From NCBI RefSeq assembly GCF_900120005.1, contig NZ_LT635454.1:402759-466758 (forward strand): a DNA stretch of 64,000 nucleotides, given 5' to 3'. Position numbers and translations under genes: made by a program. This document shows, piece by piece, positions 3,150 to 50,464 of this stretch. The notes below the pieces were generated by a model, which made no database searches, was not told the DNA's origin, and saw only the letters and a list, made by a program, of their open reading frames with translations. The stretch is from Holdemania sp. Marseille-P2844 (lineage in GTDB: Bacteria > Bacillota_I > Bacilli_A > Erysipelotrichales > Erysipelotrichaceae). Numbering within the stretch: position 1 is the stretch's first letter; each line of letters opens with the position of its first letter.

Positions 3150-3156
3150 CCGTCGA

Positions 3157-3184: not shown

Positions 3185-3224
3185 ATTTCTTACATTTTTC
3201 TATGAATATTTTCAAAGATTGTAA

Positions 3225-3238: not shown

Positions 3239-3265
3239 TTTCACATACCAGTCGTACACATAGAC

Positions 3266-3294
3266 TTCACATTTTTGAGAAAATCGTTTATTAT
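3266..3294 (+). promoter_or_regulatory. Sigma-A-type promoter of SBP 2
   Basis: TTCACA, 17-nt spacer, TATTAT, about 48 nt before the ATG. Confidence 0.5.
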
Positions 3295-3341
3295 TAAACT
3301 AACGGTTGCTTTAAAACAATCGATAGAGGAGGAAAGAATAC

Positions 3342-4937
3342 ATGAAAAAACTGCTTAAAGTTTTAGTCGTGTGTCTGGCCATGGCGATGATGCTTGCTGG
3401 ATGTGGATCCAACAATGGCGGCACTGCCAATGAAGGCGGACAGACAGACGGCGAAACCAGCGGAATTCCTACGGATCAGACTCTGATCATGGTCACGCAG
3501 CAGGATCCGCAGAGCTTCAACCCGGACTTCAAGTCCGATGACGGCGCCTGGCCGATCAACCAGAATATTTTCAACCGTCTGGTAAAACTGGGCAACAACA
3601 CAAAAATCAACCTGGATTTAGCTGAATCCTATGAATTCAGCGAAGATGGCATGCAGCTGACATTCCATCTTCATGATGGCGTTAAGTGGCATGACGGCGA
3701 GCCGTTTACCTCGGCTGACGTCAAGTGGACTTACGATACTGCGATCGCTGAAAAGTGGTCAAAAGCTGACAACCTGTCGAATATCGAAAGCATTGAATGC
3801 CCGGATGACAACACGGTTGTTATGAATCTGAAAACGCCGGACGTTTCGATTATTGCGAAGCTGGCCTGGTATGGCACATTCATTATGCCGAAGCATTTGT
3901 ATGAAGGCACCGATACGGCGACTAACCCATACAACCAGAATCCAGTCGGAACGGGTCCGTTTAAATTTGTTGAATACAAAGCAGGCCAGTATGTAACGTT
4001 GGAACGCAATGAAGATTACTGGGGCGATAAGGCGATTGCCAAAACGCTGAAGTTTGCGATCATTTCTGATGATAATACTCTGTGGGAAGCTTTCATGAAC
4101 GGTGAAGTTGATGATCTGTGCCAGATGATCCCAGCTGCTCATGCGAATGATCTGGATGGTAATGATAACTATACATTCTATTCTGAAATGGGCATCAACC
4201 GGACTTATATCACATTTAATCTGAAGGATGAACGTTTCCAGGATCAGCGTGTCCGCGAAGCCTTTGCTTTAGCGATCGACAACCAGGGCTGCTGGGATAG
4301 AACCGCTGGCGGCAATGGCGAACCTTCCAAGTATATGATTTCGCATGCCTTTACTAAGTACTTAGATGAAGATTCCAAATTACCTGAACGGAATGTAGAA
4401 CAGGCCATGAAGCTGTTGGAAGAAGCTGGTTATACGAAAGATGCTGACGGCTATTACCTGCATGTAACATTAGATGCGTTCGAAAGCGGCAACTGGAAAG
4501 ATCTGGCTGCGATTATCCAGCAGAATGTCAAAGAAGCCGGCATCGATCTGAAGATCAACATGATGGAAATGGCTGCTTGGCAGGATAAGGTTCAGGTTAA
4601 CCGTAACTTTGAAATCACAATGTTAGCGGGCTATCAGGGACCGGATATTTCCGGTGTATCCGGACGTGTTCAGACTGGAACATCCATGAACATGGCTGGC
4701 TATTCCAATCCGGAACTGGACGCTTTATTAGACAAGGGCGTTACGCTGTCGAATGAAGAAGAAAGAATCGAATGCTACAAGGAAATTCAGAAGATCATGC
4801 GTGCTGATCTGCCGATCATCCCAATCATCGACAACGGCTACAAATATGCAATCAAGAAGGAAATGAAGGGTATGCCAATGGAACTGGACGATAAGACAGC
4901 TTCTTCGGAATACACCTACACTTACCGCGCTGAATAA
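3342..4937 (+). CDS. Family-5 ABC transporter solute-binding lipoprotein (SBP 2 of 6)
   Basis: 531 aa, lipobox LAGC with Cys21, family-5 motif VKWHDGEPFTSADVKWTYD. It shares long blocks with SBPs 3-6, for example GYQGPDISG in the C-terminal half and FESGNWKD before it, so these five came from tandem duplication. Likely an extracytoplasmic lipoprotein that delivers peptides or a related ligand to an ABC importer encoded elsewhere. It has its own promoter upstream and terminator downstream, so it is probably monocistronic. Confidence 0.93.
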   Translation: MKKLLKVLVVCLAMAMMLAGCGSNNGGTANEGGQTDGETSGIPTDQTLIMVTQQDPQSFNPDFKSDDGAWPINQNIFNRLVKLGNNTKINLDLAESYEFSEDGMQLTFHLHDGVKWHDGEPFTSADVKWTYDTAIAEKWSKADNLSNIESIECPDDNTVVMNLKTPDVSIIAKLAWYGTFIMPKHLYEGTDTATNPYNQNPVGTGPFKFVEYKAGQYVTLERNEDYWGDKAIAKTLKFAIISDDNTLWEAFMNGEVDDLCQMIPAAHANDLDGNDNYTFYSEMGINRTYITFNLKDERFQDQRVREAFALAIDNQGCWDRTAGGNGEPSKYMISHAFTKYLDEDSKLPERNVEQAMKLLEEAGYTKDADGYYLHVTLDAFESGNWKDLAAIIQQNVKEAGIDLKINMMEMAAWQDKVQVNRNFEITMLAGYQGPDISGVSGRVQTGTSMNMAGYSNPELDALLDKGVTLSNEEERIECYKEIQKIMRADLPIIPIIDNGYKYAIKKEMKGMPMELDDKTASSEYTYTYRAE

Positions 4938-4954
4938 TTCATATTAGATTCTTA

Positions 4955-4986
4955 AAGACATGCTCATAAGGAGCGTGTCTTTTTCT
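4955..4986 (+). terminator. Intrinsic terminator after SBP 2
   Basis: Stem AGACATGCTC with GAGCGTGTCT followed by TTTTT. Confidence 0.75.
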
Positions 4987-5062
4987 CATGGTCATTTTTT
5001 TACTTCTGTCCGTCCAATGAAAAACACTTTTCATAAATGATGAAATTATTTACATAAAAGTA

Positions 5063-5091
5063 TTGAATAATTTTTCATCGTCCTGTATCAT
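5063..5091 (+). promoter_or_regulatory. Sigma-A-type promoter of SBP 3
   Basis: TTGAAT, 17-nt spacer, TATCAT, about 80 nt before the ATG. Confidence 0.6.
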
Positions 5092-5173
5092 ACACTTATG
5101 TGAATGGGAGGGATTCTATTGGAAAGTGATAATGCACCATAGTTTTTCATTTAGATAGGGAGGGAGTTTAGAA

Positions 5174-6766
5174 ATGAAAAAATGTTTTAAGATTTTGGCA
5201 GCTTTACTCAGCGCCGCACTCTTGCTGACGGGATGTCAGGGCGGCGGCGAAAAATCGGCGCAGACGACAGATTCGAAAACCGAAAATACAGAAACCATCG
5301 GCACATTTATCACGGCGGTACAGGGAGATCCATCGAGCTTTAATCCGGATATGAAATCGGATGATTATCTGTGGCCGATGGCTCAGAACTTGTTTAACCG
5401 CTTGTATAAGCTGGCGCCGGGCGATGTTCCAATTCCAGATTTAGCGACTTCCTACGAATGGAGCGACGATAATATGACGCTGACTTTCCATTTGCGTGAC
5501 GGCGTAAAATGGCATGACGGCGAACCATTAACATCCAAAGACGTAAAATGGACCTACGATACAATCATTGAAAATAAATGGTCGAAGTCTGATACTTTTG
5601 TCAATGTCGATACGATTGAAGCACCGGATGACCTGACAGTCGTCTTCAATATGAAAAATCCGGACGCCGGGCTTGTTCCTCTGTTAGCCTGGTATGCAAC
5701 ATTCATTCTGCCGGAGCACATCTGGAATGATCCTGCTTATCCGGATTTCGCAAAGAATCCGGCAATGCAGAAGCCAATCGGTTCCGGTCCGTTTAAGTTT
5801 GTTGAGTATAAGAGCGGACAGAGCGTTACTTTGGAACGCAATGAAGATTTCTTTGGCGGAGCTCCGGAAATCGAACGTCTGATCTATCAAATCATGCCGG
5901 ATTTGAATACGACGTTAGAAGCGTTTAAAAATGGTGAAATCGACTACATTACGAGCTTGCCGACGGCGAATCTGCACGATTTCGACAATGACCCGAATTA
6001 TGAAGTCTTCTCCTTCTTAAGCATTAACAGAACGTATCTGACCTTCAATATGGAGAAGGAACCGTTTAACAATCCAAAGCTGCGTCAGGCTGTCGCGTAT
6101 GCGGTTGACCGTCAGGCGATCGTTGACCGGATGGGCAACGGCGTCAGCGCTTTGCCGGAATATTTCATTTCTCCGCTGTTTAAAGATTATCTGAATGATG
6201 ATTACAAACTGCCGGAACGGGATATTGCGAAAGCGCAGGCTTTGATGGAAGAATGCGGATTAAAGAAGAATTCCGACGGCTATTATATGACAGTCACTTT
6301 AGACGCTTTCGAAAGCGGCAACTTCAAGGATGTCGCGGCGATCGTTCAGTCCAGCTTAAAGGAAGCTGGTATTAAGGTTGATCTGAATTTGATGGAATAT
6401 GCGGCTTGGACGGATCAGGTCAAAGAAGGCCGTAAGTTTAATATGACGATGCTTGCGGGCTATCAGGGACCGGATATCTCAGGTATTTATATGCGCGTTG
6501 GGATCAATGGATCGAACAACTTTACCGGTTATGCCAGCGACATCATGGAAGCTGCGCTGGAAAAAGGTGCTCAGAACTCGGATCCGGCGATTCGTAAGGA
6601 AGCCTATGACGAAGTTCAGCGCTTGATGAGCGAGGATATGCCAATGGTGCTGCTGCTCGACAACGGCCAGGTCATCCCGGTTAAATCCAAATTTGACGGT
6701 ACGCCATATCAGGTTCCGGATAAGGCGGCGACGAGCGAATTTACGTATGTAACATTAAAAAAATAG
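5174..6766 (+). CDS. Family-5 ABC transporter solute-binding lipoprotein (SBP 3 of 6)
   Basis: 530 aa, lipobox LTGC with Cys21, motif VKWHDGEPLTSKDVKWTYD. Compared with SBPs 2 and 4 it carries the longer loop with HIWNDPAYPDF that SBPs 5 and 6 also have, so it belongs to the SBP 3/5/6 subgroup. Role as for the family: a membrane-anchored ligand receptor for an ABC importer whose membrane parts are outside this window. Ribosome binding site GGGAGGGAG precedes the ATG. It has its own promoter and terminator. Confidence 0.93.
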   Translation: MKKCFKILAALLSAALLLTGCQGGGEKSAQTTDSKTENTETIGTFITAVQGDPSSFNPDMKSDDYLWPMAQNLFNRLYKLAPGDVPIPDLATSYEWSDDNMTLTFHLRDGVKWHDGEPLTSKDVKWTYDTIIENKWSKSDTFVNVDTIEAPDDLTVVFNMKNPDAGLVPLLAWYATFILPEHIWNDPAYPDFAKNPAMQKPIGSGPFKFVEYKSGQSVTLERNEDFFGGAPEIERLIYQIMPDLNTTLEAFKNGEIDYITSLPTANLHDFDNDPNYEVFSFLSINRTYLTFNMEKEPFNNPKLRQAVAYAVDRQAIVDRMGNGVSALPEYFISPLFKDYLNDDYKLPERDIAKAQALMEECGLKKNSDGYYMTVTLDAFESGNFKDVAAIVQSSLKEAGIKVDLNLMEYAAWTDQVKEGRKFNMTMLAGYQGPDISGIYMRVGINGSNNFTGYASDIMEAALEKGAQNSDPAIRKEAYDEVQRLMSEDMPMVLLLDNGQVIPVKSKFDGTPYQVPDKAATSEFTYVTLKK

Positions 6767-6774
6767 GAAATGTT

Positions 6775-6813
6775 CAAAACGGAGCGTTTTTTACAGAAAT
6801 GCTCCGTTTTCAC
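6775..6813 (+). terminator. Intrinsic terminator after SBP 3
   Basis: Perfect 10-bp stem AAAACGGAGC with GCTCCGTTTT. The loop contains a T run. Confidence 0.7.
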
Positions 6814-6835
6814 TGTTTTTTCTCGCCGCCATTCC

Positions 6836-6844
6836 TGATATAAT
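6836..6844 (+). promoter_or_regulatory. Extended -10 promoter of SBP 4
   Basis: TGATATAAT is a perfect -10 with an upstream TGn. No good -35 is seen, as is common for extended -10 promoters. It lies about 27 nt before the ATG. Confidence 0.55.
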
Positions 6845-6870
6845 GAAATTAAGAAAGAAGAGGAAAATTT

Positions 6871-8439
6871 ATGAAAAAATTTCTCAAACTGCTTACGGTA
6901 GGCTTGGTTGCGGCGTTGGCGCTGACGGCTTGCAGCGGGCAGAATAACACAGGCAGTGATGAAGCAAAAACAACCTCCGATGATACATTAATTGTCGTTT
7001 CATCAGGGGACCCGGTCAATTTTCATCCAGATTTTAAGTCTGATGATAACGCCTGGGGACCAAACCAGAATATTTTTAACCGTTTGGTTAAATTGAATGC
7101 CTATGATCAGACGATTCCGGATCTGGCGGAAACCTGGGAATGGAACGACGACAGCACTCAGGTTACATTCCATTTGCATGAAGGCGTGAAATGGCATGAT
7201 GGTGAACCATTTACTTCGGCGGACGTGAAATGGACTTACGATACGTTGATCGCGGAAAAATGGAATAAAAGCGACAGCTTTGCTTCTGTTGAATCGATCG
7301 AATGTCCAGATGACAACACCGTTGTCATGAATTTAAAATATCCGGATGTTTCTCTGATCGCAAAATTGTCCTGGTACGGAACATTCGTCATGCCTAAACA
7401 TTTGTATGAAGGTACCGATACGGCAACCAATGAATATAACATGAAACCAGTTGGCACAGGCCCATTCAAGTTTGTTGAATTCCAGAAGGGTGTCCGTGTT
7501 GTTCTGGAAAGAAATGAAGATTACTGGGGTGATAAAGCAAAAGTAGCGAAGGTCATCTATTCGATTATTCCGGATGCGACAACAGCTTATCAGGCATTCC
7601 GTACCGGTGAAGTGGATTACTATACCGCCATTCCTTCTCAGAATGCCAATGATTTTGATAATGACCCGGATTATGAAGTTTATCCAGTCATCGGTATGAA
7701 TCGGTCTTACGTTACAGTTAATATGACGAACGATAATTTTAAAGATGCTCGTGTTCGTCAGGCAATCGCTTACGGAATTGACCGGCAGATGATCTGGGAT
7801 CGCTGTGCTGGCGGAACAGGCGCCGTGGCTTCGACATTCATCGCTCCGAATACCGGTTTTGCGGATGAAAAATACCAGATGCCGGAACGTGACGTAGCGA
7901 AGGCTCAACAACTTCTTGAAGAAGCTGGTTTTAAGAAAGATGCAAACGGAATTTATTTCTCAACTGAAATGAAATTCTTTGAAAGTGGTTATTTCAAGGA
8001 TGCGGCGACAATTATCCAGAGTAACTTAAAAGAAGTCGGAATTGACGTTAAATTAACGATGCTGGAATATGCCGCTTGGGTAGATAATGTAAAAGTTAAT
8101 CATGATTTCGAAATGACGATGGCCGCTGGATACCAGGGACCCGATGTTTCAGGAATATCCGGACGTGTTGGCACAGGGACGTCGATGAACTTCATGGGTT
8201 ATTCCAATCCTGAATTGGACGCATTACTTGAAAAAGGTGTTCAGGTATCTGATGAAACAGAAAGAAAAGCCGTATACAGTGAAGTTCAGCGCATTATGAG
8301 TGAAGAGATGCCGCTTATTCTGTTTATGGATAATGGCGCCAAAGTCCCGGTTAAAAAGATACTGAAGGGCACGCCTTATCAGGAACCGACAAAAGCCGCT
8401 TCCAGTGAATTAACTTACGTTGAATTTGTAAAAGAATAG
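6871..8439 (+). CDS. Family-5 ABC transporter solute-binding lipoprotein (SBP 4 of 6)
   Basis: 522 aa, lipobox LTAC with Cys21, motif VKWHDGEPFTSADVKWTYD. It is closest in layout to SBP 2: both have KHLYEGTDTATN where the 3/5/6 subgroup has EHIWNDP, and both end the C-terminal ligand region with a GTSMN block. Expected to bind peptide-like ligands outside the cell for an ABC importer. Its own promoter and terminator flank it. Confidence 0.93.
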   Translation: MKKFLKLLTVGLVAALALTACSGQNNTGSDEAKTTSDDTLIVVSSGDPVNFHPDFKSDDNAWGPNQNIFNRLVKLNAYDQTIPDLAETWEWNDDSTQVTFHLHEGVKWHDGEPFTSADVKWTYDTLIAEKWNKSDSFASVESIECPDDNTVVMNLKYPDVSLIAKLSWYGTFVMPKHLYEGTDTATNEYNMKPVGTGPFKFVEFQKGVRVVLERNEDYWGDKAKVAKVIYSIIPDATTAYQAFRTGEVDYYTAIPSQNANDFDNDPDYEVYPVIGMNRSYVTVNMTNDNFKDARVRQAIAYGIDRQMIWDRCAGGTGAVASTFIAPNTGFADEKYQMPERDVAKAQQLLEEAGFKKDANGIYFSTEMKFFESGYFKDAATIIQSNLKEVGIDVKLTMLEYAAWVDNVKVNHDFEMTMAAGYQGPDVSGISGRVGTGTSMNFMGYSNPELDALLEKGVQVSDETERKAVYSEVQRIMSEEMPLILFMDNGAKVPVKKILKGTPYQEPTKAASSELTYVEFVKE

Positions 8440-8445
8440 AACAAA

Positions 8446-8493
8446 GAACTGCAGTAAGCTCAATGAAAATCATGAAGAGCACTGCAGTTTTTC
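8446..8493 (+). terminator. Intrinsic terminator after SBP 4
   Basis: Stem AACTGCAGT with ACTGCAGTT, a longer loop, then a T run. Confidence 0.6.
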
Positions 8494-8568
8494 TATGTTT
8501 GCTTATGTAAAATTTACATTGTGAATAATGAAACTTTCTCGCAATGATGAAACATGGCGTGAAATGGA

Positions 8569-8597
8569 TTGACGATGTTTTCCAACAAGCGTAAACT
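8569..8597 (+). promoter_or_regulatory. Promoter of SBP 5
   Basis: TTGACG, 17-nt spacer, TAAACT. The same hexamers and spacing recur before SBP 6. Confidence 0.65.
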
Positions 8598-8638
8598 TAA
8601 AATTATCATTCATTCTTCACAAGTAAGGAGGGAAAATT

Positions 8639-10219
8639 ATGAAGAAACTGACAAAGCTCTTAGCCGCCATGATGGTGGCCTGCCTCATGATGGCCGGATG
8701 CGCCGGCGGGGGCGGCACTGATCAGAAAGACCAGGCTGTACCACAGGATGTTCTGATCGTCAATGTTACAGGCGATCCGCAAAGCTTTAATCCGGATATG
8801 AAATCAGATGACTACGCATGGCCGATCAATCAGAATATTTACAGCCGGCTGGTAAAACTCAACAGCGACGATCAGGTGATTCCAGATCTGGCTGAAAGTT
8901 GGGAATTCAGCGACGATGGAATGAAATTGACATTCCATTTGAAGAAAGATGTGAAGTGGCATGACGGCGAAGCACTCACTTCAGAGGACGTGAAATGGAC
9001 GTTCGATACGATGATCGCCAATAAATGGTCGAAATCTGACAGTCTGGCTTCGGTTGAATCAATCGAATGTCCGGATGATCTGACTGTTGTCTTAAATATG
9101 AAAGTAAAAGATGTTTCTATCGTTTCCAAGCTGGGCTGGTATGCAACGTTTATCATGCCGGAACATATCTGGAATGATCCGCAATATAAGGATTTTACAT
9201 CCAATCCGGCAAACTGGCAGCCAGTAGGAAGCGGACCATACAAGTTTGATAATTATAAGAGCGGAGTCGCGACGACGTTAGTCAAGAATAGCGACTATTT
9301 CGACGGTGAGCCGATTGTTGAAAAATTAATCTTTACAATCGTTCCGGATTCGACAACCGCATTCCAGTCGTTTGTCAACGGTGAAATTGATTACTTTAAC
9401 ATTATTGTTCCGACGGCGAATAAGCATGATCTGGATAATAATCCGGATTATCGTTTCTTCGATTACATTTCAATCAACCGGACTTATCTGACGTTTAATA
9501 TGAAAGAAGGCCGCTTTACAGATCCGCGTCTGCGGCAGGCGGTGGCGAAAGGGGTCGACCGTCAGGGGATTTTCGATCGGGTTTCCAATGGCGCTGGCGC
9601 TTTGGCAGAATACTTTATTTCGCCTCTGTGGGAAGGCAAATACCTTGATAAGCAGTATAGAATGCCGGAACGAGATATCGAAGGTGCAAAGAAGTTAATT
9701 GAAGAAGCCGGTTACACGATGGATGAAGACGGGTATTATTTCTCGATGACACTGGACAGCTTCGATGACGGAAACTTTAAAGATATTGCCCAGATTGTCA
9801 AAGAAAATCTGAAAGAAATCGGGATTAACGTTAATCTGAATATCATGGAAATGGCTGCCTGGCAGGATAAAGTAATGGGAGAAAACCCGGACTTTGAAAT
9901 GACAATGCTGGCAGGCTATCAGGGTCCGGACGTATCCGGCGTGGCCGGACGCGTGGCCTCCAACGGCGGGACCAATGTCGGTATGTATAACAATCCTGAA
10001 ATGGATGCGGCGCTGCAGGCGGCCGTCGAAATAGACGACGTGCAGGAACGGGCCAAGTATTACAGTGAAGTTCAGCGTATGATGTACGAAGATATGCCGA
10101 TGGTTTTCTTATTTGAAAACGGCGATCATCAGCCGGTCAAGATCTCTCTGGACGGTACGCCTCGAGATGTGCCGGATAAAGCGGCTTCCAATGAATTTAC
10201 ATACACGATGTTTAAGTAA
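8639..10219 (+). CDS. Family-5 ABC transporter solute-binding lipoprotein (SBP 5 of 6)
   Basis: 526 aa, lipobox MAGC with Cys21, motif VKWHDGEALTSEDVKWTFD. Very close to SBP 6: they share LAEYFISPLWEGKYLDKQY and RVASNGGTNVG blocks, which points to a recent duplication. Likely extracytoplasmic ligand receptor for an ABC importer. Ribosome binding site AAGGAGGGAAAATT lies just before the ATG. It has its own promoter and terminator. Confidence 0.93.
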   Translation: MKKLTKLLAAMMVACLMMAGCAGGGGTDQKDQAVPQDVLIVNVTGDPQSFNPDMKSDDYAWPINQNIYSRLVKLNSDDQVIPDLAESWEFSDDGMKLTFHLKKDVKWHDGEALTSEDVKWTFDTMIANKWSKSDSLASVESIECPDDLTVVLNMKVKDVSIVSKLGWYATFIMPEHIWNDPQYKDFTSNPANWQPVGSGPYKFDNYKSGVATTLVKNSDYFDGEPIVEKLIFTIVPDSTTAFQSFVNGEIDYFNIIVPTANKHDLDNNPDYRFFDYISINRTYLTFNMKEGRFTDPRLRQAVAKGVDRQGIFDRVSNGAGALAEYFISPLWEGKYLDKQYRMPERDIEGAKKLIEEAGYTMDEDGYYFSMTLDSFDDGNFKDIAQIVKENLKEIGINVNLNIMEMAAWQDKVMGENPDFEMTMLAGYQGPDVSGVAGRVASNGGTNVGMYNNPEMDAALQAAVEIDDVQERAKYYSEVQRMMYEDMPMVFLFENGDHQPVKISLDGTPRDVPDKAASNEFTYTMFK

Positions 10220-10251
10220 ATAACGCAGGTTTCTTTATGAATTATGCGCAA

Positions 10252-10286
10252 AAGCGCAGGTTTGAGATAAACCTGCGCTTTGCTTT
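10252..10286 (+). terminator. Intrinsic terminator after SBP 5
   Basis: Perfect stem AGCGCAGGTTT with AAACCTGCGCT followed by TTGCTTTG. Confidence 0.75.
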
Positions 10287-10364
10287 GCTCAATAAGAATT
10301 GAAAAATGTTTCAAAAGAAAATGATAGAAATATACATTTACTGAAATAAATGTAAAATATCATC

Positions 10365-10393
10365 TTGACGTTCGCTTTTCCTCCGTGTAAACT
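10365..10393 (+). promoter_or_regulatory. Promoter of SBP 6
   Basis: TTGACG, 17-nt spacer, TAAACT, identical in hexamers and spacing to the SBP 5 promoter. Confidence 0.65.
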
Positions 10394-10441
10394 CAAACTA
10401 TATTCTTCTAAAATGAAGGAAGACGCAAGGAGGGAAAGGGT

Positions 10442-12031
10442 ATGAAAAAATTACCGAAACTGCTGACAGCCTTATTGATTGCGTGTTTAATGCTGGCGGG
10501 CTGCGGCACCGATGAAAAGAAAACCGACAAGGATGGGACAACAGGGGAAACACCGGCACAGGATGTTTTAATCTATGCCGTTAACGGGGATCCGCAAAGT
10601 TTTAATCCCGATATGAAGTCTGATGACTATGCTTATCAAATCAATCAGAACGTTTACAGCCGGTTGATCAAGCTGAATGCAAACGACCAGATTTTACCGG
10701 ATCTGGCAAAGAGCTGGGAGTTTTCCGAAGATGGTCTGACGCTAACCTTCCATTTACAGGAAGGTGTGAAATGGCATGATGGCGAACCGTTTACTTCGGA
10801 AGACGTCAAATGGACGTTTGATACGATGAAACAGAATTCCTGGACAAAATCGGATTCGCTGGCAGCAGTGACTTCGATTGAATGCCCGGATGACAATACC
10901 GTCGTTTTGAATCTCAGCCAGCGCGACGTCGGCATCGTTCCTAAATTAGGCTGGTATGCGACGTTCATCATGCCGGAACATATCTGGAATGATCCGGCTT
11001 ATTCTGACTTTGTATCCAACCCGGCGACATGGAATCCAGTCGGAACGGGTCCTTACAAGTTTGAAAAGTATGACGCAGGGATTGGGACAACGTTGGTTAA
11101 AAATGAAGATTACTTTGGAACGGAAGCGACAATCGAAAGATTGATCTTCCAGGTCATTCCGGATCAGACGACGGCTTATCAGTCTTTCCTGAACGGCGAA
11201 GTTGACTATCTGGGCGTAAGCGTTCCGACGGCGAATAAGCATGAACTGGACAACGATCCGAATTATAAGCATTTCCACTATCTGTCGATCAACAGAACGT
11301 ATATTACCTTCAACATGGAAACCAGCATCTTCAAGGACGTTCGTCTGCGCCAGGCTGTCGCGATGGGCGTTGACCGTCAGGGCATTTACGATCGGGTTGC
11401 CAACGGAACCGGGGCGTTAGCTGAATACTTCATCTCGCCGTTATGGGAAGGCAAGTATCTGGATAAACAGTACACGATGCCGGCCCGCGATGTAGAAGCG
11501 GCGAAGAAGCTGATTGAAGAAGCCGGTTATACATTGCGCGACGACGGGTTCTATTTCGATATGACGATGGATATCTTTGAAAGCGGAAACTTTAAGGATA
11601 TCGCGCAGATCGTGAAAGAAAACCTGAAGGAAATCGGCATCAACGTCACGTTGAATATCATGGAAATGGCGGCATGGCAGGATAAAGTCATTACCAATTC
11701 CAACTTTGATATGACGATGCTGGCAGGCTATCAGGGACCGGATGTCTCCGGTGTTGCCGGACGCGTCGCTTCCAATGGCGGAACCAACGTCGGATTGTAT
11801 AACAATCCGGAAATGGATGCCGCGCTGCAGGCTGGCGTTGAAACTGACGACGATGCAGAACGGGCCAAGGCTTACAGCGAGGTTCAGCGGCTGATGAGCG
11901 AAGATATGCCGATGGTCTTCCTGTTTGAAAACGGCGACTGTCTGCCGGTTGCGGTCAATCTTGACGGTACGCCGAGAGACGTTCCGGAATTGACGAGCGC
12001 CGCGGAATTCACGTACGCGAATTACAAATAA
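10442..12031 (+). CDS. Family-5 ABC transporter solute-binding lipoprotein (SBP 6 of 6)
   Basis: 529 aa, lipobox LAGC with Cys21, motif VKWHDGEPFTSEDVKWTFD. Nearest relative is SBP 5 next door. The array ends here. The next genes are unrelated, so the importer membrane subunits are not downstream; they may lie upstream of the window. Ribosome binding site AAGGAGGG lies before the ATG. Confidence 0.93.
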   Translation: MKKLPKLLTALLIACLMLAGCGTDEKKTDKDGTTGETPAQDVLIYAVNGDPQSFNPDMKSDDYAYQINQNVYSRLIKLNANDQILPDLAKSWEFSEDGLTLTFHLQEGVKWHDGEPFTSEDVKWTFDTMKQNSWTKSDSLAAVTSIECPDDNTVVLNLSQRDVGIVPKLGWYATFIMPEHIWNDPAYSDFVSNPATWNPVGTGPYKFEKYDAGIGTTLVKNEDYFGTEATIERLIFQVIPDQTTAYQSFLNGEVDYLGVSVPTANKHELDNDPNYKHFHYLSINRTYITFNMETSIFKDVRLRQAVAMGVDRQGIYDRVANGTGALAEYFISPLWEGKYLDKQYTMPARDVEAAKKLIEEAGYTLRDDGFYFDMTMDIFESGNFKDIAQIVKENLKEIGINVTLNIMEMAAWQDKVITNSNFDMTMLAGYQGPDVSGVAGRVASNGGTNVGLYNNPEMDAALQAGVETDDDAERAKAYSEVQRLMSEDMPMVFLFENGDCLPVAVNLDGTPRDVPELTSAAEFTYANYK

Positions 12032-16111: not shown

Positions 16112-17671
16112 ATGAAAAAGTATAGTGAGCAGATTCAACGTTTCGGTCGATCACTGCTGCTGCCGATCGGGGTTATGGCGCCGGTGGGCTTACTGCTGGG
16201 CTTGTCCGCGGCATTCACCCAGTCGTACATGATCGATCTGCTGCCCTTTCTGGGCAATCCAACCGTCAAGCTGATCTTTACCAGCATCCGTCAGATTTCC
16301 GATCTGATCTTCGGCAACATTCCGATTATGTTTGCGATGGGCGTCGCCTATGGGATGGCGAAACGTGATAAGGGAATCGCGGTCTTCTCGTCCGTGATGG
16401 CGTATCTGATTCTTTTGATCACGATGAAAATCTGGCTGTCAGCTTCAGGACAGCTGATTACCGAAGGCAATATCGCCGTCGGGGGTCAGGCGATGGTCTT
16501 AGGTATGCAGACGTTAAACGTCAACGTTTTAGGCGGCATCATCGCCGGTCTGGTCGCCGCCTGGGCTTCCGACAAGTTCTATAATCTGGAACTGCCGATT
16601 GCATTTGCCTTCTTCTCCGGCAAGAAATCCGTCCCGTTAATCTCGATGGGCGTGACGGTGGTGATCGGTTTGATTCTGCCGTTCTTCTGGCAATATTTCA
16701 TTGCCTTCTGCAGCAGCTTGTCCGGCCTGCTTCTGCATAAGATTCTCGGACCGGTGCTGTCAGGCTTTGTCAACCGGATGATGATTCCGTTTGGTCTGCA
16801 TCACGTCTGGAACGCGATGCTGCGCTTCACGGAAGCCGGCGGCACGTATGTGATCAATGGCCAAACTTACATTGGTTATCTTGATGCGATGAATGAAATT
16901 TTGTTTAATCTTGGACCGGAAAGCGAATACTGGGCGCTGATGCCGGAGCTGACCCGCTTTGGCGCGCAGAATCAGATGGTCAGAACGATGTTCGTCTTCC
17001 CGGCAATCGGCTTGGCGATGTACAAGACCGCGTATCCGGAGAACAAAGCGTTGGCGAAGTCTCTGATTCTGACCTCGGTGCTGACGGCGGCGCTGGGCAA
17101 TGTGACCGAACCGCTGGAATTTACGTTCCTGTTCATCGCGCCGGCACTGTATGTGATTTACGCGCTGATCGGAACGCTTGGCTCGCTGGCTCTCTATTTC
17201 ATGGGAACGGCCGTCGGCTATATCCGCGGCACGGTGTTTGACTTTGTCATCTTCGGCGTCATGATGAAGAATTCCCATTGGATCAATATCGTGATCGTCG
17301 GCGTGATCAGCTTCGTCGTTTATTACTTCCTGTTCAAGTGGTGGATCGTCAAATTTGACGTCAAGACGCCGGGACGGGAAGACGAGCCGTCCGCGGATAA
17401 CGTGCTGATCCGGGAAAAGCGGTATGACGAAATCGCGAAGATTGTGATCGAAGCGCTGGGCGGGCCATCCAACATCGGCACGGTCGACAACTGTATTACC
17501 CGCTTGCGGATTGATATCAACGACAACAAGAAGATTGACAAAGATCTTTTGAAAAAATCCGGGTGCGCCGGAATCTTCTTCCCGACGACCAAGCATATTC
17601 ACATTGTTTTCGGACCGTTAGTCGAATTTGTCCGCAATGCGGTTGACGATGAACTGGGGCGGCACGCATGA
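16112..17671 (+). CDS. PTS EIIBC permease, alpha-glucoside family
   Basis: 519 aa. The EIIC membrane domain (about residues 1-415, many hydrophobic helices) is followed by a C-terminal EIIB domain (about 435-519) whose phospho-accepting Cys461 lies in DNCITRLR. The protein imports a sugar and phosphorylates it at the membrane. It lacks EIIA, which is encoded three genes downstream. The next gene is a GH4 phospho-glycosidase, so the alpha-glucoside subfamily (AglA/MalX-like) is the best fit. Ribosome binding site GGGAGG; its stop overlaps the next start (ATGA). Confidence 0.92.
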   Translation: MKKYSEQIQRFGRSLLLPIGVMAPVGLLLGLSAAFTQSYMIDLLPFLGNPTVKLIFTSIRQISDLIFGNIPIMFAMGVAYGMAKRDKGIAVFSSVMAYLILLITMKIWLSASGQLITEGNIAVGGQAMVLGMQTLNVNVLGGIIAGLVAAWASDKFYNLELPIAFAFFSGKKSVPLISMGVTVVIGLILPFFWQYFIAFCSSLSGLLLHKILGPVLSGFVNRMMIPFGLHHVWNAMLRFTEAGGTYVINGQTYIGYLDAMNEILFNLGPESEYWALMPELTRFGAQNQMVRTMFVFPAIGLAMYKTAYPENKALAKSLILTSVLTAALGNVTEPLEFTFLFIAPALYVIYALIGTLGSLALYFMGTAVGYIRGTVFDFVIFGVMMKNSHWINIVIVGVISFVVYYFLFKWWIVKFDVKTPGREDEPSADNVLIREKRYDEIAKIVIEALGGPSNIGTVDNCITRLRIDINDNKKIDKDLLKKSGCAGIFFPTTKHIHIVFGPLVEFVRNAVDDELGRHA

Positions 17672-29371: not shown

Positions 29372-29468
29372 GGTCAGCGGGATGCGGAACCTGCACCGCA
29401 AGAAACCTTTTCGTCCTTCTGACAACTCCCCGTTCAGAAAGCACTTAACGCGCAGGAACCTACTCTGT
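29372..29468 (-). ncRNA. Tetrahydrofolate (THF) riboswitch
   Basis: Read on the minus strand, the leader contains the conserved THF-I aptamer pieces in order: AGAGTAGG, GCGTTAAGTG, GGGGAGTTGTC, GGACGAAAAGG, GCGGTGCAGG and CCGCATCCCGCT. The pairing CCTGC/GCAGG fits the long-range stem. Located between a good promoter and folT. Known examples turn off folate uptake genes when reduced folate is plentiful. Confidence 0.92.
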
Positions 29469-29476
29469 TTGTGAAG

Positions 29477-42354: not shown

Positions 42355-42360
42355 TATAAT
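42355..42360 (+). promoter_or_regulatory. -10 of EIIC-EAL gene
   Basis: TATAAT 22 nt before the ATG at 42383; no clear -35. Confidence 0.5.
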
Positions 42361-42382
42361 AGAAGAAATCAGGGAGAAAAAC

Positions 42383-44443
42383 ATGCGGAAAGAGAAGTTC
42401 AGCGCCGGCTTGGCGAAAATGGAATCCTGCCGACTGATCCGCGCGGTCAGGGCGGGATTGACGATCGCGATTCCGATTTTAATGATCGGGTCCTTTTCGT
42501 TATTGATTCGAACGTTTGCGGGTTATTTTCCTGCGCTGGCTTTTATCGAAGAACTGGCGGAACTGCTTTATCAATGTACCTTCGGCATTCTGTCGGTGCT
42601 GCTGACAGGGTGTCTGGCCTGGGGCGCGCTGCAGACCGAGGAGAAACCGCTGGCCGGGGATTGGATCGTTCCGCCGGCGGCTGTCATGGTGTTCATCATT
42701 CTCAACGGCGGCCTCAAGCTGGAATCGGCGGGAGCGGTCGGAACGTTTACCGCGGTGTGCGCGGCATTCTTTACAAGCTTTACGTATTGCGGGCTGCGGC
42801 GGAAGCTGCCTGACGAGCATTTCTTTACCCCCGGCGCGGATTACAATTTCAATCAGGCGCTGACGGCGATTCTGCCGATGCTGGCGGTGCTGCTGGGGGC
42901 GGCGGTGTTCAACGAGGGAATCCGGCTGGTGTTCCATATTGAAAGTTTCCAGGAAGTGTTCGTGCTGTTGTCCAATACGTTGTTTCGGCACATGGGACGG
43001 GGACTGGTCAGTTCGGCGCTGTTTGTGTTTTTGTCTTCCGTGCTGTGGCTTTTGGGAATCCATGGCGCCAACGTTCTGGAGAATGTTTCACGTTCCCTGT
43101 TTCAGGAGGGAATGCAGATCAACGTTGCCGCGGCGGCGGCCGGAATGGCGCCGACGGAGATCTTTACCAAGACATTTCTGGATAATTTTGTATTCATCGG
43201 CGGCTGTGGGACATTGATCTGTCTGCTGATCGCGCTGATGTTGTTCAGCCGTCAGCGCGTCAGCCGGACGCTGGCAAAAACGGCGGTCATTCCGATGTTG
43301 TTCAATATCAATGAGCTGATGATTTTCGGCCTGCCGGTTGTGTTTAATCCGGTGTTTGTAATTCCGTTTTTACTGACGCCCTTAGTCTGTCTGTTCACCT
43401 CGTCGCTGGCGATGGGGATGGGATGGGTTCCGGTGTGCGTGCAGGGCGTGGAATGGACGACGCCAGCGTTGATCAGCGGCTATCTGGCAACCCGATCGTG
43501 GACAGGAGCGCTGCTTCAGATTGTGAACATTGCGCTGGGCGTAGGAATTTACGCGCCGTTTGTGCTGCTTTACGATAAGATGCTGATCCGCCAGTCGCAG
43601 CGGCAGATGAGCGAGCTGATCGAAACGCTGGACGCCCAAATGGAGCAGGGCAAACCGGCGAATCTGATCGGGATGCATGGCGCCGTTGGCAATTTCGCAA
43701 AGCTGCTGGCGGCGGAGATTAACAACGATTTGCAGCAGAACCATATTGAAATGGGCTATCAGCCGCAGTTTGACGCGGAAAACCACTGCTTCGGCGTGGA
43801 AGCGCTGCTGCGGTACACTCATCCCCGCTATGGCAAGGTTCCCCCGCCGCTGATCATTGATCTGGCAAAGGAAACCGATCAGCTGCAGGCGCTGGAGATG
43901 GCGGTGTTCACGCAGGTGCTGCAGGCGGATTTCAGCGGGATCGACGCGGTGATTTCGATGAACGTCACCGTCGATACCTTGAAATCGGAGGTGTTCGCGG
44001 ATTTTCTCCGGCAACATCCGGTGCCGAAAGGCCGGTATTGCATTGAGGTGACGGAGCAGAACACGCTGCTTCTGGACGAGGCGATGCGCCAGCGGCTGAA
44101 GGAGTTTAAAGATCTGGGCTATTCGCTGGCAGTCGATGATTTCTCAATGGGCAGTACGTCGCTGAAGTATTTGCAGAGCAGTCAGTTTGAGCTTGTCAAG
44201 CTGGATGGCAGTCTGGTGAAAAATGCCCGGGTGAACGCGAGCGGACGGCAGATCATCCAGTCAATTCTGTATCTGGCCCAATCGATGAACTTCACGGTCA
44301 TCGCGGAATATGTCGAAACTGCAGAACTGCGCGACTTGCTGAAAGAATTGGGCTGTACGCATTATCAGGGGTATTTATACAGTCCGGCGGTGCCGCTGAA
44401 ACAGCTGCGGACGGTAATCCGGGAGATCGAAGCGCAGCGGTAA
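42383..44443 (+). CDS. PTS EIIC (lactose/cellobiose family) fused to EAL phosphodiesterase domain
   Basis: 686 aa from the ATG at 42383 (GGGAG upstream). Residues about 1-410 form a multi-helix EIIC domain of the cellobiose family, with features such as GIHGANVLEN and PMLFNINELMIFGLPVVFNP. Residues about 430-686 are an EAL domain that keeps the catalytic set: Glu473 of GVEALLRY, Asn in MNVTVD, Glu in IEVTEQ, Asp585-Asp586 in AVDDFS, Lys in VKLDG, Glu642 in IAEYVET and Gln in HYQGYLYSP. It therefore probably hydrolyses cyclic-di-GMP. No EIIA or EIIB is fused or adjacent, so the EIIC part may serve as a sugar sensor rather than a transporter; that is inference. Confidence 0.88.
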   Translation: MRKEKFSAGLAKMESCRLIRAVRAGLTIAIPILMIGSFSLLIRTFAGYFPALAFIEELAELLYQCTFGILSVLLTGCLAWGALQTEEKPLAGDWIVPPAAVMVFIILNGGLKLESAGAVGTFTAVCAAFFTSFTYCGLRRKLPDEHFFTPGADYNFNQALTAILPMLAVLLGAAVFNEGIRLVFHIESFQEVFVLLSNTLFRHMGRGLVSSALFVFLSSVLWLLGIHGANVLENVSRSLFQEGMQINVAAAAAGMAPTEIFTKTFLDNFVFIGGCGTLICLLIALMLFSRQRVSRTLAKTAVIPMLFNINELMIFGLPVVFNPVFVIPFLLTPLVCLFTSSLAMGMGWVPVCVQGVEWTTPALISGYLATRSWTGALLQIVNIALGVGIYAPFVLLYDKMLIRQSQRQMSELIETLDAQMEQGKPANLIGMHGAVGNFAKLLAAEINNDLQQNHIEMGYQPQFDAENHCFGVEALLRYTHPRYGKVPPPLIIDLAKETDQLQALEMAVFTQVLQADFSGIDAVISMNVTVDTLKSEVFADFLRQHPVPKGRYCIEVTEQNTLLLDEAMRQRLKEFKDLGYSLAVDDFSMGSTSLKYLQSSQFELVKLDGSLVKNARVNASGRQIIQSILYLAQSMNFTVIAEYVETAELRDLLKELGCTHYQGYLYSPAVPLKQLRTVIREIEAQR

Positions 44444-44462: not shown

Positions 44463-44500
44463 GGGACAAGGCATCATCCTATCAAGCCTTGTCTTTTTTT
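44463..44500 (+). terminator. Intrinsic terminator after EIIC-EAL gene
   Basis: Stem GACAAGGC with GCCTTGTC followed by TTTTTTT. Confidence 0.8.
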
Positions 44501-44580
44501 GTTCAGCGGGACGAAATTTGGTGACAGGAACGCAAAATTGCCTCAAATTTCAAGCGGAACATAGAATAATTGCGAATAAA

Positions 44581-44682: not shown

Positions 44683-45420
44683 TTGAAAATGCTCGACGCT
44701 CATTCTCATCTGGGGACAACCAGCTCTGGCGATCCTCATGACGTTCATCAGCTCGTAAAGGACATGCTCAGCCATGGCATCACGCAAACCGGTATCAGCA
44801 GTCTGTCCGGTACCGATAATCGCCGCCAGAACGACCTTGTCTATGAAGCCATGCAGTTGTATCCAGAACAGATTCGGGGTTATGCGTTCATCAATCCCAA
44901 GGCGCCCGATGTCCATCAGGAAATTGATCTGGATCTGGGGCAGCGGCACATGGTCGGCGTGAAATTTCATCCCTGGAAACATGGGTATTATTCTGATAAT
45001 ACACCGCAGCTGCAGGAGGTCCTCGCGCATATTTTTGAATATCCGGTTCAGGTCCAGGTTCATGTCGGAACCAGTCCGCTGTGCACCCCGTTTGCCTGGA
45101 TCCGCTACGCGAAGATGTTTCCTGATCATCCGTTTGTTTTCACACACATGGGAAGCCGGGAGTTTGGTTATACCGTCGTTGAGGCGGTGCGCGATGTTCC
45201 CAATATTTACCTTGAAACATCCGTGCAATACCAGCGCGACGTGCTGCTTAAAGCTGCCCGCGAAATTGGATCCCGGCGGATCTTGTTCGGCGTTGACTGG
45301 CCATATAAGCCGATCGAAACCGAAGTCCGCAAAATCCAGCTGCTGGGTTTTTCGCAAACTGAACTGGAAGACGTTTATTACCGCAACATTGAAGAATTAT
45401 GGCAGAAAGCGGAGGGATAA
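44683..45420 (+). CDS. Amidohydrolase-2 family metal hydrolase, first of pair
   Basis: 245 aa from a TTG start with AGAGG 8 nt upstream (an ATG two codons on is the alternative). TIM-barrel amidohydrolase-2 fold (COG2159): DAHSHLG, VKFHPW, VQVHVGT, FTHMGS and FGVDWP supply a complete metal site. Relatives include decarboxylases and lactonases. First gene of a seven-gene operon with a mannose-family PTS, so the substrate is likely a PTS-imported sugar derivative or glycoside. Confidence 0.85.
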   Translation: MKMLDAHSHLGTTSSGDPHDVHQLVKDMLSHGITQTGISSLSGTDNRRQNDLVYEAMQLYPEQIRGYAFINPKAPDVHQEIDLDLGQRHMVGVKFHPWKHGYYSDNTPQLQEVLAHIFEYPVQVQVHVGTSPLCTPFAWIRYAKMFPDHPFVFTHMGSREFGYTVVEAVRDVPNIYLETSVQYQRDVLLKAAREIGSRRILFGVDWPYKPIETEVRKIQLLGFSQTELEDVYYRNIEELWQKAEG

Positions 45421-45422
45421 AG

Positions 45423-45914
45423 ATGGAGATTACCGTGATTCGGATTGACGATCGGTTAATTCATGGGCAAATCATTACAAAATGGATTGCGGAAGCGAGG
45501 GCGGAACAAATTCTGGTTGTAGACGAGAAGAGCGCCGCGGATCCGATGCTCCGGATGATTCTGGCGCTGGCGGTCCCGTCGGGGATTCATTTGGAAGTCC
45601 TGTCGCAGGAGGCTGCCCTGAAGCTGATCAATGTGGACACCTCCGCCCGGCGGACGCTGATGATTGTCCGCACGCCGCAGGCGATGCTGGACATGGTCCG
45701 GGCAGGATTGGATGTGAAATCCCGGGAGATCATCTTGGGAAATATGAGCTTTGACGAGAAAAAAGCCGGAATCCGGCATGTTCTTGACTATCTGTATGTC
45801 AACGATCAGGATGTCGAAACGCTGAAAGCGCTGGCGGCGTCCTGCGCTAAAATGACCATTAAAGCCGTTCCAGAGGAACGGGGAAAAGAGCTTAAGATTC
45901 TGCAACAAAAATAA
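45423..45914 (+). CDS. PTS EIIB, mannose/fructose/sorbose family
   Basis: 163 aa. The signature DDRLIHGQI near the N-terminus contains the phospho-accepting His14; mannose-family EIIB uses His instead of Cys. Starts 3 nt after the amidohydrolase stop with GGAGGG upstream. It takes phosphate from the EIIA at the end of the operon and gives it to the sugar carried by the EIIC-EIID protein. Confidence 0.94.
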   Translation: MEITVIRIDDRLIHGQIITKWIAEARAEQILVVDEKSAADPMLRMILALAVPSGIHLEVLSQEAALKLINVDTSARRTLMIVRTPQAMLDMVRAGLDVKSREIILGNMSFDEKKAGIRHVLDYLYVNDQDVETLKALAASCAKMTIKAVPEERGKELKILQQK

Positions 45915-45935: not shown

Positions 45936-47519
45936 ATGTTACTGAAAGCATTTTTAGTCTCGCTCGTCGTCTGGCTGGGATTTTTGGATAAAGCCTTTCT
46001 GTCGACTTTCATTTACCGGCCAATTTGTCTGGGGCCGATCGTCGGTCTGATTTTCAATAATCTGCCGATGGGATTGGAGGTCGGCGTCACGATTGAACTG
46101 ATGTTTCTGGCTGTCGTCTATGTCGGGACCGCAGTTCCGCCGGATGAGGTGATCAGTGCGGGAATCGCTACGGCTCTGGCCTGTCTGTCCGGCAGCGCCG
46201 CGCTGGGAATTACGACGGCGATCCCGATTTCATTGTTAGGTCTGATCGGCCGTCAATTCCGGAACGCAACACTGCAGGAATTCACGACCCGTCAGGTAGA
46301 AAAAGCCGCAAAGAAAGCGGATGTCCGGGGGATTAAGATCTGGACGTCGCTGATGCCGGCAATCGTCAATTATATCTTATTCGGACTGCCGACGTTCATC
46401 GCCGTTTACTTCGGAGCGGAAGTCGTTCAGAATTTCCTGAACGTCATCCCGGCCTGGCTGACCAGCGGCGTGCGCGCCGGCGGCGGCATGTTGGGCGCCG
46501 TGGGCGTTGCATTGTTGTTGGGGACGATTAAAAACAAGAGTTCCTGGCCTTATTTTGTCCTGGGCTTTATCATCGCGGCGTATCTGGGAATCAATATGAT
46601 CGGAATGGCGGCGATTGCGCTAGTCTGCGTCGCCCTGAATTACTATGTGGAAAAAGAAGACGCGCCGCAGACCGTTTTGTCCTCCTCAGCGCAGGAAGGA
46701 GCGCCGAATCATCTGAGCAAAAAGACGCTGTGGAAAACCTACATGTATTCTCTGGCGATTGAAAGCGGCTGTTCCAATACAAAACAGGAAGCGCCGGGGA
46801 TTGTCCAGGGCCTGATTCCGGTTATTGAAGAGGTCTATACCGATCCGAAGGACAAGGCGGAAGCCTATCAGCGGCATACGCAGCTGTTTCTGACGGAGGG
46901 CCGGATGGCGTCTTTCTGCATCGGGATTTCCGCCGCGATGGAAGAGCGGAATGCCCGCAGCCATGATATCGATCCGGAATCGATCAATCAGATTAAAGTG
47001 GCGCTGATGGGGCCGTTAGCCGGCATTGGCGATTCCCTCATCCATGGCACATTGCGGCCGATCATGGCCGGATTGGGCTGTTCAATGATCATGGCCAGTC
47101 ATTACACCAGCGCCGCGGGAGCGGTTGTGTTTGTCCTGGTGATGACGCTTGTTCAGCTGTTAGTTCGCTATTTCGGTATTTTCAAAGGCTATCTGGGCGG
47201 CTTGAATTTAGTCGCGCGGCTGCAGATGGGCGGCATCCTGGATAAAATTACAAAATATGCCGGAATCGCCGCGTCGTTAATTTGCGGCGGTTTTATCTCC
47301 TCGCTGGTTTCGATCAATCTGGCGATTCAGTTTGCGGCGGGCGACGACGTGATCCAGCTTCAGGAAGTGCTCGACGGGTTAATGCCGAACTTGCTTCCGC
47401 TGCTTCTGACGCTGCTGATGGTCTGGTTAATGGGACGGAAGAAAGTGAACATGATCGTTTTGATGATCGCGGTCTTCCTGCTGGGAATTGCCGGGGTGGC
47501 TCTTGGCATTCTGGCTTAA
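45936..47519 (+). CDS. PTS EIIC-EIID fusion, mannose family
   Basis: 527 aa. Residues about 1-245 are EIIC of the mannose family (GPIVGLIFNNLPMGLEVGVTIELMFLAVVYVGTAVPPDE). After a short linker (DAPQTVLSSSAQEG), residues about 262-527 are EIID (LAIESGCSNTKQEAPG, then HTQLFLTEGRMASFCIGI, and LMGPLAGIGDSLIHGTLRPI). These are usually two separate proteins that form one channel; here one reading frame covers both with no stop or shift. It forms the membrane channel. Confidence 0.92.
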   Translation: MLLKAFLVSLVVWLGFLDKAFLSTFIYRPICLGPIVGLIFNNLPMGLEVGVTIELMFLAVVYVGTAVPPDEVISAGIATALACLSGSAALGITTAIPISLLGLIGRQFRNATLQEFTTRQVEKAAKKADVRGIKIWTSLMPAIVNYILFGLPTFIAVYFGAEVVQNFLNVIPAWLTSGVRAGGGMLGAVGVALLLGTIKNKSSWPYFVLGFIIAAYLGINMIGMAAIALVCVALNYYVEKEDAPQTVLSSSAQEGAPNHLSKKTLWKTYMYSLAIESGCSNTKQEAPGIVQGLIPVIEEVYTDPKDKAEAYQRHTQLFLTEGRMASFCIGISAAMEERNARSHDIDPESINQIKVALMGPLAGIGDSLIHGTLRPIMAGLGCSMIMASHYTSAAGAVVFVLVMTLVQLLVRYFGIFKGYLGGLNLVARLQMGGILDKITKYAGIAASLICGGFISSLVSINLAIQFAAGDDVIQLQEVLDGLMPNLLPLLLTLLMVWLMGRKKVNMIVLMIAVFLLGIAGVALGILA

Positions 47520-49255: not shown

Positions 49256-50052
49256 TGTCTGAACGATCGCGCATCCTGGCGATGCTGCAGCCGGAGGCCA
49301 TGCCGGGAAGTTATTTGAATCAGGGCCGGCGTTTTCCGGAGATTGCTGCCAATTTGATGGCGGAAGCCCGGCAGTTGGCGGAGATTGGCTATGATGGTTT
49401 TATTTTGCAGAATATGCATGACGGTCCGCTGCGTCAACAGGCTCAGCCCCAGACTCTGACCTTTATGACGGCGCTGGCGGTAACCCTGCGGAAGACATTT
49501 CCCGATAAGCTTCTGGGAATTCTGGTAAACTGGGACGGCGTCGCTTCATTAGCGGTCGCGGAAGCGGCGCAGGCAGATTTTATCCGGGTCGAATATTTAT
49601 ATACCGGTCTCAGCGTCAGCTTATGCGGTCTGGTTGAAGGGCAATGTGCCGAGATTCTGGAATTGAAAAAAAAGCTGGGCAGCACGATGCCTGTGTATGC
49701 GGATGCGCAGGAAGTCAGCGGGCATTTTCTGGGAGCGCCGGATAAGATTGAAGAAGCGGTGCGGATCGTGCAGCGGGCCTATGCCGACGGCCTGTTTCTG
49801 AGCGGAAAGGATCAGCAGGAAAGTCTGGCGTTGCTTGAAAAGCTTCGTCCGAAGCTTCCGCAGACTCCGGTTATTCTCGGCGGCCGGGCAACCGGCGATA
49901 ATATTTATGAATTGATGAAAGTTTATGACGGCGTGTCGGTCGCAACCTGGATAAAAGACGGCGATATGCGCAATCCTGTCAATCTGGACAAAGCGCGGTT
50001 CTTTTATAACGAAGCCCGCCGCGGCTGGCTGGCAAGGAAAAACCATGGGTAA
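49252..50052 (+). CDS. BtpA/SgcQ-family TIM-barrel protein
   Basis: 266 aa from the ATG at 49252 (a second ATG follows directly; AAGGAGGG upstream). BtpA family pattern: ARQLAEIGYDGFILQNMHD, ILVNWDGVASLAVAEAAQADFIRVE, LVEGQCAEI, VYADAQEVSGHFL and VILGGRATGDNI. BtpA was named from photosystem I work in cyanobacteria, but in enteric bacteria the relative SgcQ lies in a PTS cluster (sgc), as here, so a catabolic enzyme on a sugar phosphate is likely. Reaction unknown. Overlaps the EIIA start by 8 nt. Confidence 0.85.
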   Translation: MMSERSRILAMLQPEAMPGSYLNQGRRFPEIAANLMAEARQLAEIGYDGFILQNMHDGPLRQQAQPQTLTFMTALAVTLRKTFPDKLLGILVNWDGVASLAVAEAAQADFIRVEYLYTGLSVSLCGLVEGQCAEILELKKKLGSTMPVYADAQEVSGHFLGAPDKIEEAVRIVQRAYADGLFLSGKDQQESLALLEKLRPKLPQTPVILGGRATGDNIYELMKVYDGVSVATWIKDGDMRNPVNLDKARFFYNEARRGWLARKNHG

Positions 50053-50464
50053 TGTTCTCTTGTGTACCCACAGCACCCTCGCTGAAGGGTTTGAGCGTGC
50101 GGTGATGATGATCGTCCGCGCCGCGCCGTCGCTGGAAATTCTCTGCTTTGAAGATGGCTGCAGTATTGAAACGCTGATGGAACAGATGCGGAAAAAAACA
50201 GAGCGGTTTCGTCAGGTGAACGAAACTTACTGCATCGTCACTGATCTGTTCGGCGCCTCTCCCTTTAACGCCGCGATGCAGGTCTGCGCGAAAGAGACAG
50301 GTTTCGTTGTAACCGGCGTGAATCTGGCTTTGCTTCTGGAGCTGTTGACGCTGCCCGCATCCAAGATGACGCAGGAACGATTGAAAACGCTGATCGAGCA
50401 GGCGCAGGATCAAATTCGTTGTTATGATCCGGCAGCTCTGATGAAATCATCCGATTCAGTATAA
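50045..50464 (+). CDS. PTS EIIA, mannose family
   Basis: 139 aa. Active-site His9 in LLCTHSTLAEGF and the DLFGASPFN loop mark the mannose-type EIIA fold. It receives phosphate from HPr and passes it to the EIIB encoded at the start of the operon. Last gene of the operon; a terminator follows. Confidence 0.92.
   Translation: MGNVLLCTHSTLAEGFERAVMMIVRAAPSLEILCFEDGCSIETLMEQMRKKTERFRQVNETYCIVTDLFGASPFNAAMQVCAKETGFVVTGVNLALLLELLTLPASKMTQERLKTLIEQAQDQIRCYDPAALMKSSDSV

Follow-up and report, generated by a model that had tools for sequence, protein, structure and literature searches.

What does a sugar channel of the PTS do when it is joined, in one chain, to a domain that breaks down c-di-GMP? The question is raised by a gene in a 64,000-nucleotide stretch of the Holdemania sp. 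Marseille-P2844 genome (contig NZ_LT635454.1, positions 402,759 to 466,758 of the forward strand; hereafter the window). A preliminary description, made from the sequence of the window, proposed that either the presence of a sugar or the state of its transport may directly set c-di-GMP breakdown by the encoded protein. Few cases are known in which a specific sugar is linked directly to c-di-GMP, and the best that we found works through PTS phosphorylation. Here, we consider it fairly probable that the EIIC half of the protein has turned into a PTS-independent sugar receptor, which would set the activity of the EAL half, a putative c-di-GMP phosphodiesterase.

A single gene with two domains under selection

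As the preliminary description had recognized, one uninterrupted frame joins a cellobiose-type EIIC to an EAL domain (Table 1). A Pfam scan of the protein returned PTS_EIIC at residues 24-333 (4.9e-26), EAL at residues 445-668 (1.4e-51) and no other domain. The fusion protein has counterparts in Holdemania filiformis (L017; 92% identity) and Holdemania massiliensis (L018; 88% identity), and dN/dS between Holdemania species is 0.06-0.07 for the EIIC domain, 0.04 for the EAL domain and 0.13-0.26 for the linker. Purifying selection acts on both the EIIC and the EAL domains. Given these homologues and the dN/dS of about 0.04-0.07 in both domains, we rule out a sequencing artefact.

The ATG start is supported by TATAAT and GGGAG just upstream in three Holdemania species. 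Because the gene has its own TATAAT and ribosome-binding site and an intrinsic terminator, it resembles a one-gene unit, and by these signals it looks like a single-gene transcription unit. The c-di-GMP riboswitch families RF01051 and RF01786 had no match in the genome, but control genomes were without a match too, so that this negative carries no information.

A whole-protein AlphaFold model built from a four-sequence input had a mean pLDDT of 50, and its EIIC half was not usable. Viral contigs scanned to deepen the alignment yielded EALs and no confirmed EIIC.

Table 1 Features of the fusion gene and of other loci in the window (window coordinates).
Feature	Coordinates	Strand	Remarks
Glc-type PTS EIICB	16112-17671		
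THF riboswitch	29373-29469	-	84 bits
-10 promoter element TATAAT	42355..42360	+	just upstream of the fusion gene; kept in three Holdemania species
Ribosome-binding site AGGGAG	42371..42376	+	GGGAG shared by the three Holdemania species compared
EIIC-EAL fusion gene, 686 aa	42383..44443	+	single open frame, ATG start
EIIC domain, residues 12-405	42416..43597	+	Lac/cellobiose type; Pfam, NCBIfam and 3qnq match
Cytoplasmic loop, residues 146-160	42818..42862	+	IKMPxxVPPxVxxxF lost; fusion-specific GADxxFN at 151-157
H227	43061..43063	+	equivalent of bcChbC H250 (sugar site); alignment to 3qnq
E311	43313..43315	+	equivalent of bcChbC E334 (sugar site); alignment to 3qnq
Linker, residues 406-440	43598..43702	+	fast-evolving; predicted largely helical at low confidence
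EAL domain, residues 441-680	43703..44422	+	Pfam; loop 6 DFSMGSTS; catalytic set intact
Intrinsic terminator	44463..44501	+	10-bp stem and T run, 3' of the fusion gene
Man-type IIB	45399-45914		mannose/sorbose-type EII operon, starting 1 kb downstream of the fusion
Fused Man-family IIC-IID	45936-47519		one 527-aa frame; same mannose/sorbose-type operon
Man-type IIA	50045-50464		completes the mannose/sorbose-type EII operon

The fusion family

Searching databases for the same domain pair, as the preliminary description had suggested, yielded 17 EIIC-EAL homologues that form one clade, from Holdemania, other Bacilli, Butyrivibrio, Clostridioides difficile and Acetoanaerobium; PTS_EIIC together with c-di-GMP domains has also been counted in a 2022 review (PMC8846402). 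We compared the 17 fusions with 77 stand-alone EIICs (3qnq included), and the fusion EIICs were monophyletic (FastTree support 0.996); the comparators come mostly from one bacterial family, which limits the comparison. Whole-genome searches placed members in a second genus of the Holdemania family, elsewhere in that order and in additional families of that class. The fusions are 27-92% identical to the window protein, and their EIIC and EAL domains always stand in one chain. We found no paper in the open-access literature that describes a member.

The C. difficile homologue (L078) adjoins rlmH, has the same EIIC-EAL architecture and is 34% identical to the window protein. It is annotated merely as an "EAL domain-containing protein", and its function is described in no paper that we found. 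Genes for Lac-type EIIB and EIIA lie ~7 kb from it. The record that carries it (NZ_CP149720.1) is a 163-kb "plasmid" with dnaB, adenylosuccinate synthase and rlmH beside the fusion; as these genes are chromosome-like, it may be a mislabelled piece of the chromosome. The Acetoanaerobium record NZ_CP154629.1 (2.6 Mb) is likewise filed as a plasmid. In Butyrivibrio, the frame of a methyl-accepting chemotaxis protein (L019:3350-5797) immediately precedes the fusion in the same orientation, with a frame overlap of ~10 bp, hinting at a shared operon. We also profiled the gene neighbourhoods for clues to the ligand. However, this was uninformative because the neighbours differ in every lineage looked at.

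The EIIC domain keeps the sugar site

The fusion scores 92 bits against PF02378 (PTS_EIIC; cut-off 30.7). The NCBIfam model for lactose/cellobiose IIC (TIGR00410) covers residues 12-404 (7.9e-57) at 193 bits, which is under its curated cut-off of 236. By these matches, the fusion EIIC is homologous to, but divergent from, the lactose/cellobiose IIC family. The only solved EIIC relative found by sequence was ChbC of Bacillus cereus (bcChbC; 3qnq), which aligns with residues 12-406 (1.8e-39), and Escherichia coli ChbC matches the fusion EIIC by profile (5.4e-35).

In bcChbC, E334 and H250 belong to the chitobiose site and are common to IICGlc (PMC11393339). Five residues of the window protein, W222, H227, E311, N322 and W358, correspond to bcChbC W245, H250, E334, N345 and W382, and all five are invariant in 17/17 fusions and in our 16-row alignment.

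EAL domains are often membrane-anchored and work as dimers. The EIIC could accordingly be a mere membrane anchor and dimeriser, with EAL activity independent of sugar, and the loss of certain transport-specific positions (see below) is consistent with such a role. However, a mere anchor would not hold the sugar-site residues invariant across proteins that are 27-92% identical, and the low dN/dS of the EIIC domain also argues against it. We regard this explanation as improbable and interpret the conserved site as that of a probable receptor.

A remodelled cytoplasmic loop

Stand-alone EIICs read IKMPxxVPPxVxxxF at bcChbC positions 170-184, and both ChbC and PtsG of E. coli keep IKLP there. This sequence is lost in 17/17 fusions, with the permease loop IK[ML]PxxVPP present in none of them, and G[ASTI][DNS]xxFN is found at the loop position in 16/17 fusions versus 0/77 stand-alone EIICs. 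The losses are concentrated in the loop: the fusions lost 5/5 transporter-conserved columns within it versus 4/31 elsewhere (Fisher p 3e-4). Because the fusions form one clade, the loop change counts once and not as many independent changes. It would be one old change kept since, and may reflect a single ancestral event. A more diverged EIIC-EAL protein (L052) is without GADxxFN and has a near-canonical loop 6 in its EAL domain; the tree places it with the other fusions.

In PtsG, the loop between TM4 and TM5 is cytoplasmic, and its F146 serves the opposite protomer as inward gate (PMC11393339). The overall profile match to PtsG is weak (hhalign probability 1.9%), with the IK[LM]P motif common to both as its anchor, which is why we infer, and do not observe, that the fusion loop corresponds to the PtsG gate loop. 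The double-proline hinge of PtsG (P173/P174) was considered as another counterpart and rejected, as the alignment places the loop on the TM4-TM5 cytoplasmic loop.

The EAL domain has a complete catalytic set

The EAL half matches many solved phosphodiesterases and scores 175.6 bits against PF00563 (curated cut-off 31.3), covering profile positions 3-235 of 236. The metal and catalytic residues that the preliminary description listed (E473, D585-D586, K606, E642, and Q662) are present as described. We add N527, E555, and E558, and the whole set is invariant in 16 aligned fusion proteins.

The canonical loop 6, DFG[TA]GYSS, is absent. The window protein has DFSMGSTS, most homologues have DFSMG[QH]TS and four have DFGMG[HR]SS, whereas the other EALs of the same genome have a canonical loop 6 wherever it was read. 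Active EALs share the canonical form as a consensus but do not strictly require it; because loop 6 departs from the usual DFGTGYSS, catalytic competence is not certain.

Some EAL proteins, e.g., FimX and LapD, bind without hydrolysing. Together with the departure of loop 6 from the canonical form, such examples suggest control in the reverse direction, where the EAL domain would sense c-di-GMP and thereby open or close the EIIC channel. However, binding alone would not need the metal ligands and the catalytic Lys, Glu, and Gln, which are invariant, and several homologues have a loop 6 nearer to canonical (DFGMGHSS). Control in this direction therefore seems to us a poor prospect. Within the receptor reading, which we hold to be fairly probable as a whole, the fusion is a membrane-bound candidate c-di-GMP phosphodiesterase with a complete set of catalytic residues.

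The preliminary description had remarked on seeing no GGDEF protein in the window, and had suggested a genome search in which a lack of GGDEF proteins would count against its proposal. The remark fails at the level of the genome, where 28 matches to GGDEF and 10 to EAL were found; the literal GGDEF motif was seen in 7/8 loci checked. GGDEF genes were present in 13/13 other fusion-bearing genomes tested.

PTS partners in the window and across genomes

The preliminary description also stated that no EIIA or EIIB is near. This is correct for the Lac type, which is not adjacent to the fusion, but 1 kb downstream begins a complete mannose/sorbose-type operon, and the window also contains a Glc-type EIICB, both of other PTS families (Table 1). 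The Man-type operon also holds two Amidohydro_2 proteins, an IF-2B-like protein and a BtpA-family protein, and a GntR/UTRA regulator adjoins it. We considered this operon as the functional partner of the fusion and rejected it: the operon has its own promoter-like site, a terminator intervenes, and it was not found beside the fusion in two sister species. At the start of the window (69-12031) are tandem ORFs of 522-535 aa, and the four that were scanned are family 5 solute-binding proteins.

Lac-type EIIA or EIIB genes were not found within ~5-10 kb of the fusion at 14/15 loci examined. Within 1.5 kb, EIIA or EIIB genes accompany 0/11 fusions versus 8/25 stand-alone EIICs (Fisher p 0.08), so their lack next to the fusions is only suggestive of a difference between the two groups.

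The fusion could still function as a PTS permease to which an EAL domain has been added, and in which a Lac-type EIIB acting in trans phosphorylates the sugar and the state of transport or phosphorylation sets the EAL. The sugar-site residues are intact, and the Holdemania genome has 12 PTS_IIB matches and 6 Lac-type EIIA matches, making coupling in trans possible there. However, the cytoplasmic loop conserved in transporters is gone in every fusion, nearly all loci are without neighbouring Lac-type EIIA or EIIB, and the fusion is kept in genomes without PTS_IIB. The PTS_IIB family search of 13 fusion-bearing genomes, which was also the only search to cover Fru-type EIIs, gave no match in five (G345, G368, G610, G643, and G659), and two more (G569 and G642) had matches only below the cut-off.

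One of the five has no detectable PTS. We searched the whole of G345 (1,536,171 bases, 1.54 Mb; 97% complete), the one genome checked for EI and HPr, with E. coli EI, HPr, EIIA(Glc), ChbA, ChbB, ChbC, and PtsG and the Holdemania EIIs as queries, and with the fusion by tblastn. Besides the fusion itself, this whole-genome search returned nothing for EI, HPr, EIIA, EIIB of the Lac or Man type, or a further EIIC of the Lac or Glc family. The sole EI-like match was a pyruvate phosphate dikinase-type protein, and the sole Glc-IIB-like small protein has Glu at the position of the PtsG phosphocysteine. As a control of sensitivity, the same E. coli EI and HPr queries recover Firmicute EI at 41-49% identity and HPr at 40-42% identity from public records. 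In the genome without detectable PTS, L245:15373-15756 encodes a membrane protein of 127 aa whose Glc-type IIB-like domain has no phosphocysteine, and its gene directly precedes a transketolase-like gene.

On this evidence, we consider a working permease unlikely. Because the sugar site is kept in organisms without phosphorylating partners, a receptor is the simplest account, and the membrane half is probably there to sense a sugar and not to pump it.

Proposed mechanism

In EIIC domains, which are dimeric, both ends lie in the cytoplasm and the transport domain moves in an elevator-type manner (PMC11393339, PMC11930441). We propose that the EIIC half of the fusion would likewise form a dimer in the membrane, and the invariant site residues suggest that a disaccharide-type sugar binds at the ancestral site. 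As in the elevator motion of EIICs, sugar binding, which would replace group translocation by EIIB, may shift the transport domain at the C-terminal side with respect to the scaffold domain. Because the EAL domain directly follows the transport domain, it should be cytoplasmic and would feel this movement, hanging from the transport domain on a linker of ~35 residues. The shift could then alter the mutual arrangement of the two EAL domains, and c-di-GMP hydrolysis to pGpG would be raised or lowered. The remodelling of the loop would fit the loss of the sugar-release/EIIB step, or a new signalling contact. That a PTS channel became a stand-alone receptor controlling c-di-GMP hydrolysis through elevator movement, in a conserved Bacilli/Clostridia family kept without detectable PTS, is a fuller claim, to which we give about even chances.

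Direct sugar control of c-di-GMP breakdown, as first proposed for this locus, gains support at the sequence level because the sugar and EAL sites are invariant in one chain and every fusion-bearing genome that was tested has GGDEF genes. The version in which transport state is the signal has become less likely, since no fusion has kept the putative gating loop and genomes without PTS_IIB, one of them with no detectable PTS, retain the fusion.

Comparison with known systems

A 2022 review (Randall et al., PMC8846402) counts PTS_EIIC as one of the rare input domains in c-di-GMP proteins, and the architectures in it (PTS_EIIC with EAL/GGDEF) have the same Pfam domain types in one chain as the fusion. 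The review treats EIIC as a phosphoreceiver under the control of PTS phosphorylation; it neither offers a mechanism nor analyses individual members. In contrast, the fusion clade persists without PTS_IIB, has its putative gate loop replaced and keeps the sugar site, which speaks against a phosphoreceiver as the present interpretation of EIIC in such proteins. The EIIC-EAL architecture was thus known by count, and its conversion into a probable PTS-independent receptor appears to be new. With receptor and enzyme in one chain, it would be simple to test if an elevator transporter can become a signal receptor. Members of the family come from C. difficile and from gut commensals, bacteria in which it matters that sugars can switch the cell between a motile and a sessile life.

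The ChbC proteins of B. cereus (3qnq) and E. coli belong to the same Lac family as the fusion, which keeps the equivalents of H250 and E334. Unlike the fusion, ChbC is a transporter that works with ChbB and ChbA, has the IK[ML]PxxVP loop and carries no EAL domain. The closest functional parallel is PdeS-EIIA(Glc) of Vibrio cholerae (PMC6877527), where, as proposed here, sugar status acts through a PTS component to control an EAL phosphodiesterase. In V. cholerae, a soluble phosphorylated EIIA binds a separate phosphodiesterase (PMC6877527), whereas in the fusion a membrane EIIC is joined to the EAL domain itself and PTS phosphorylation appears to be dispensable.
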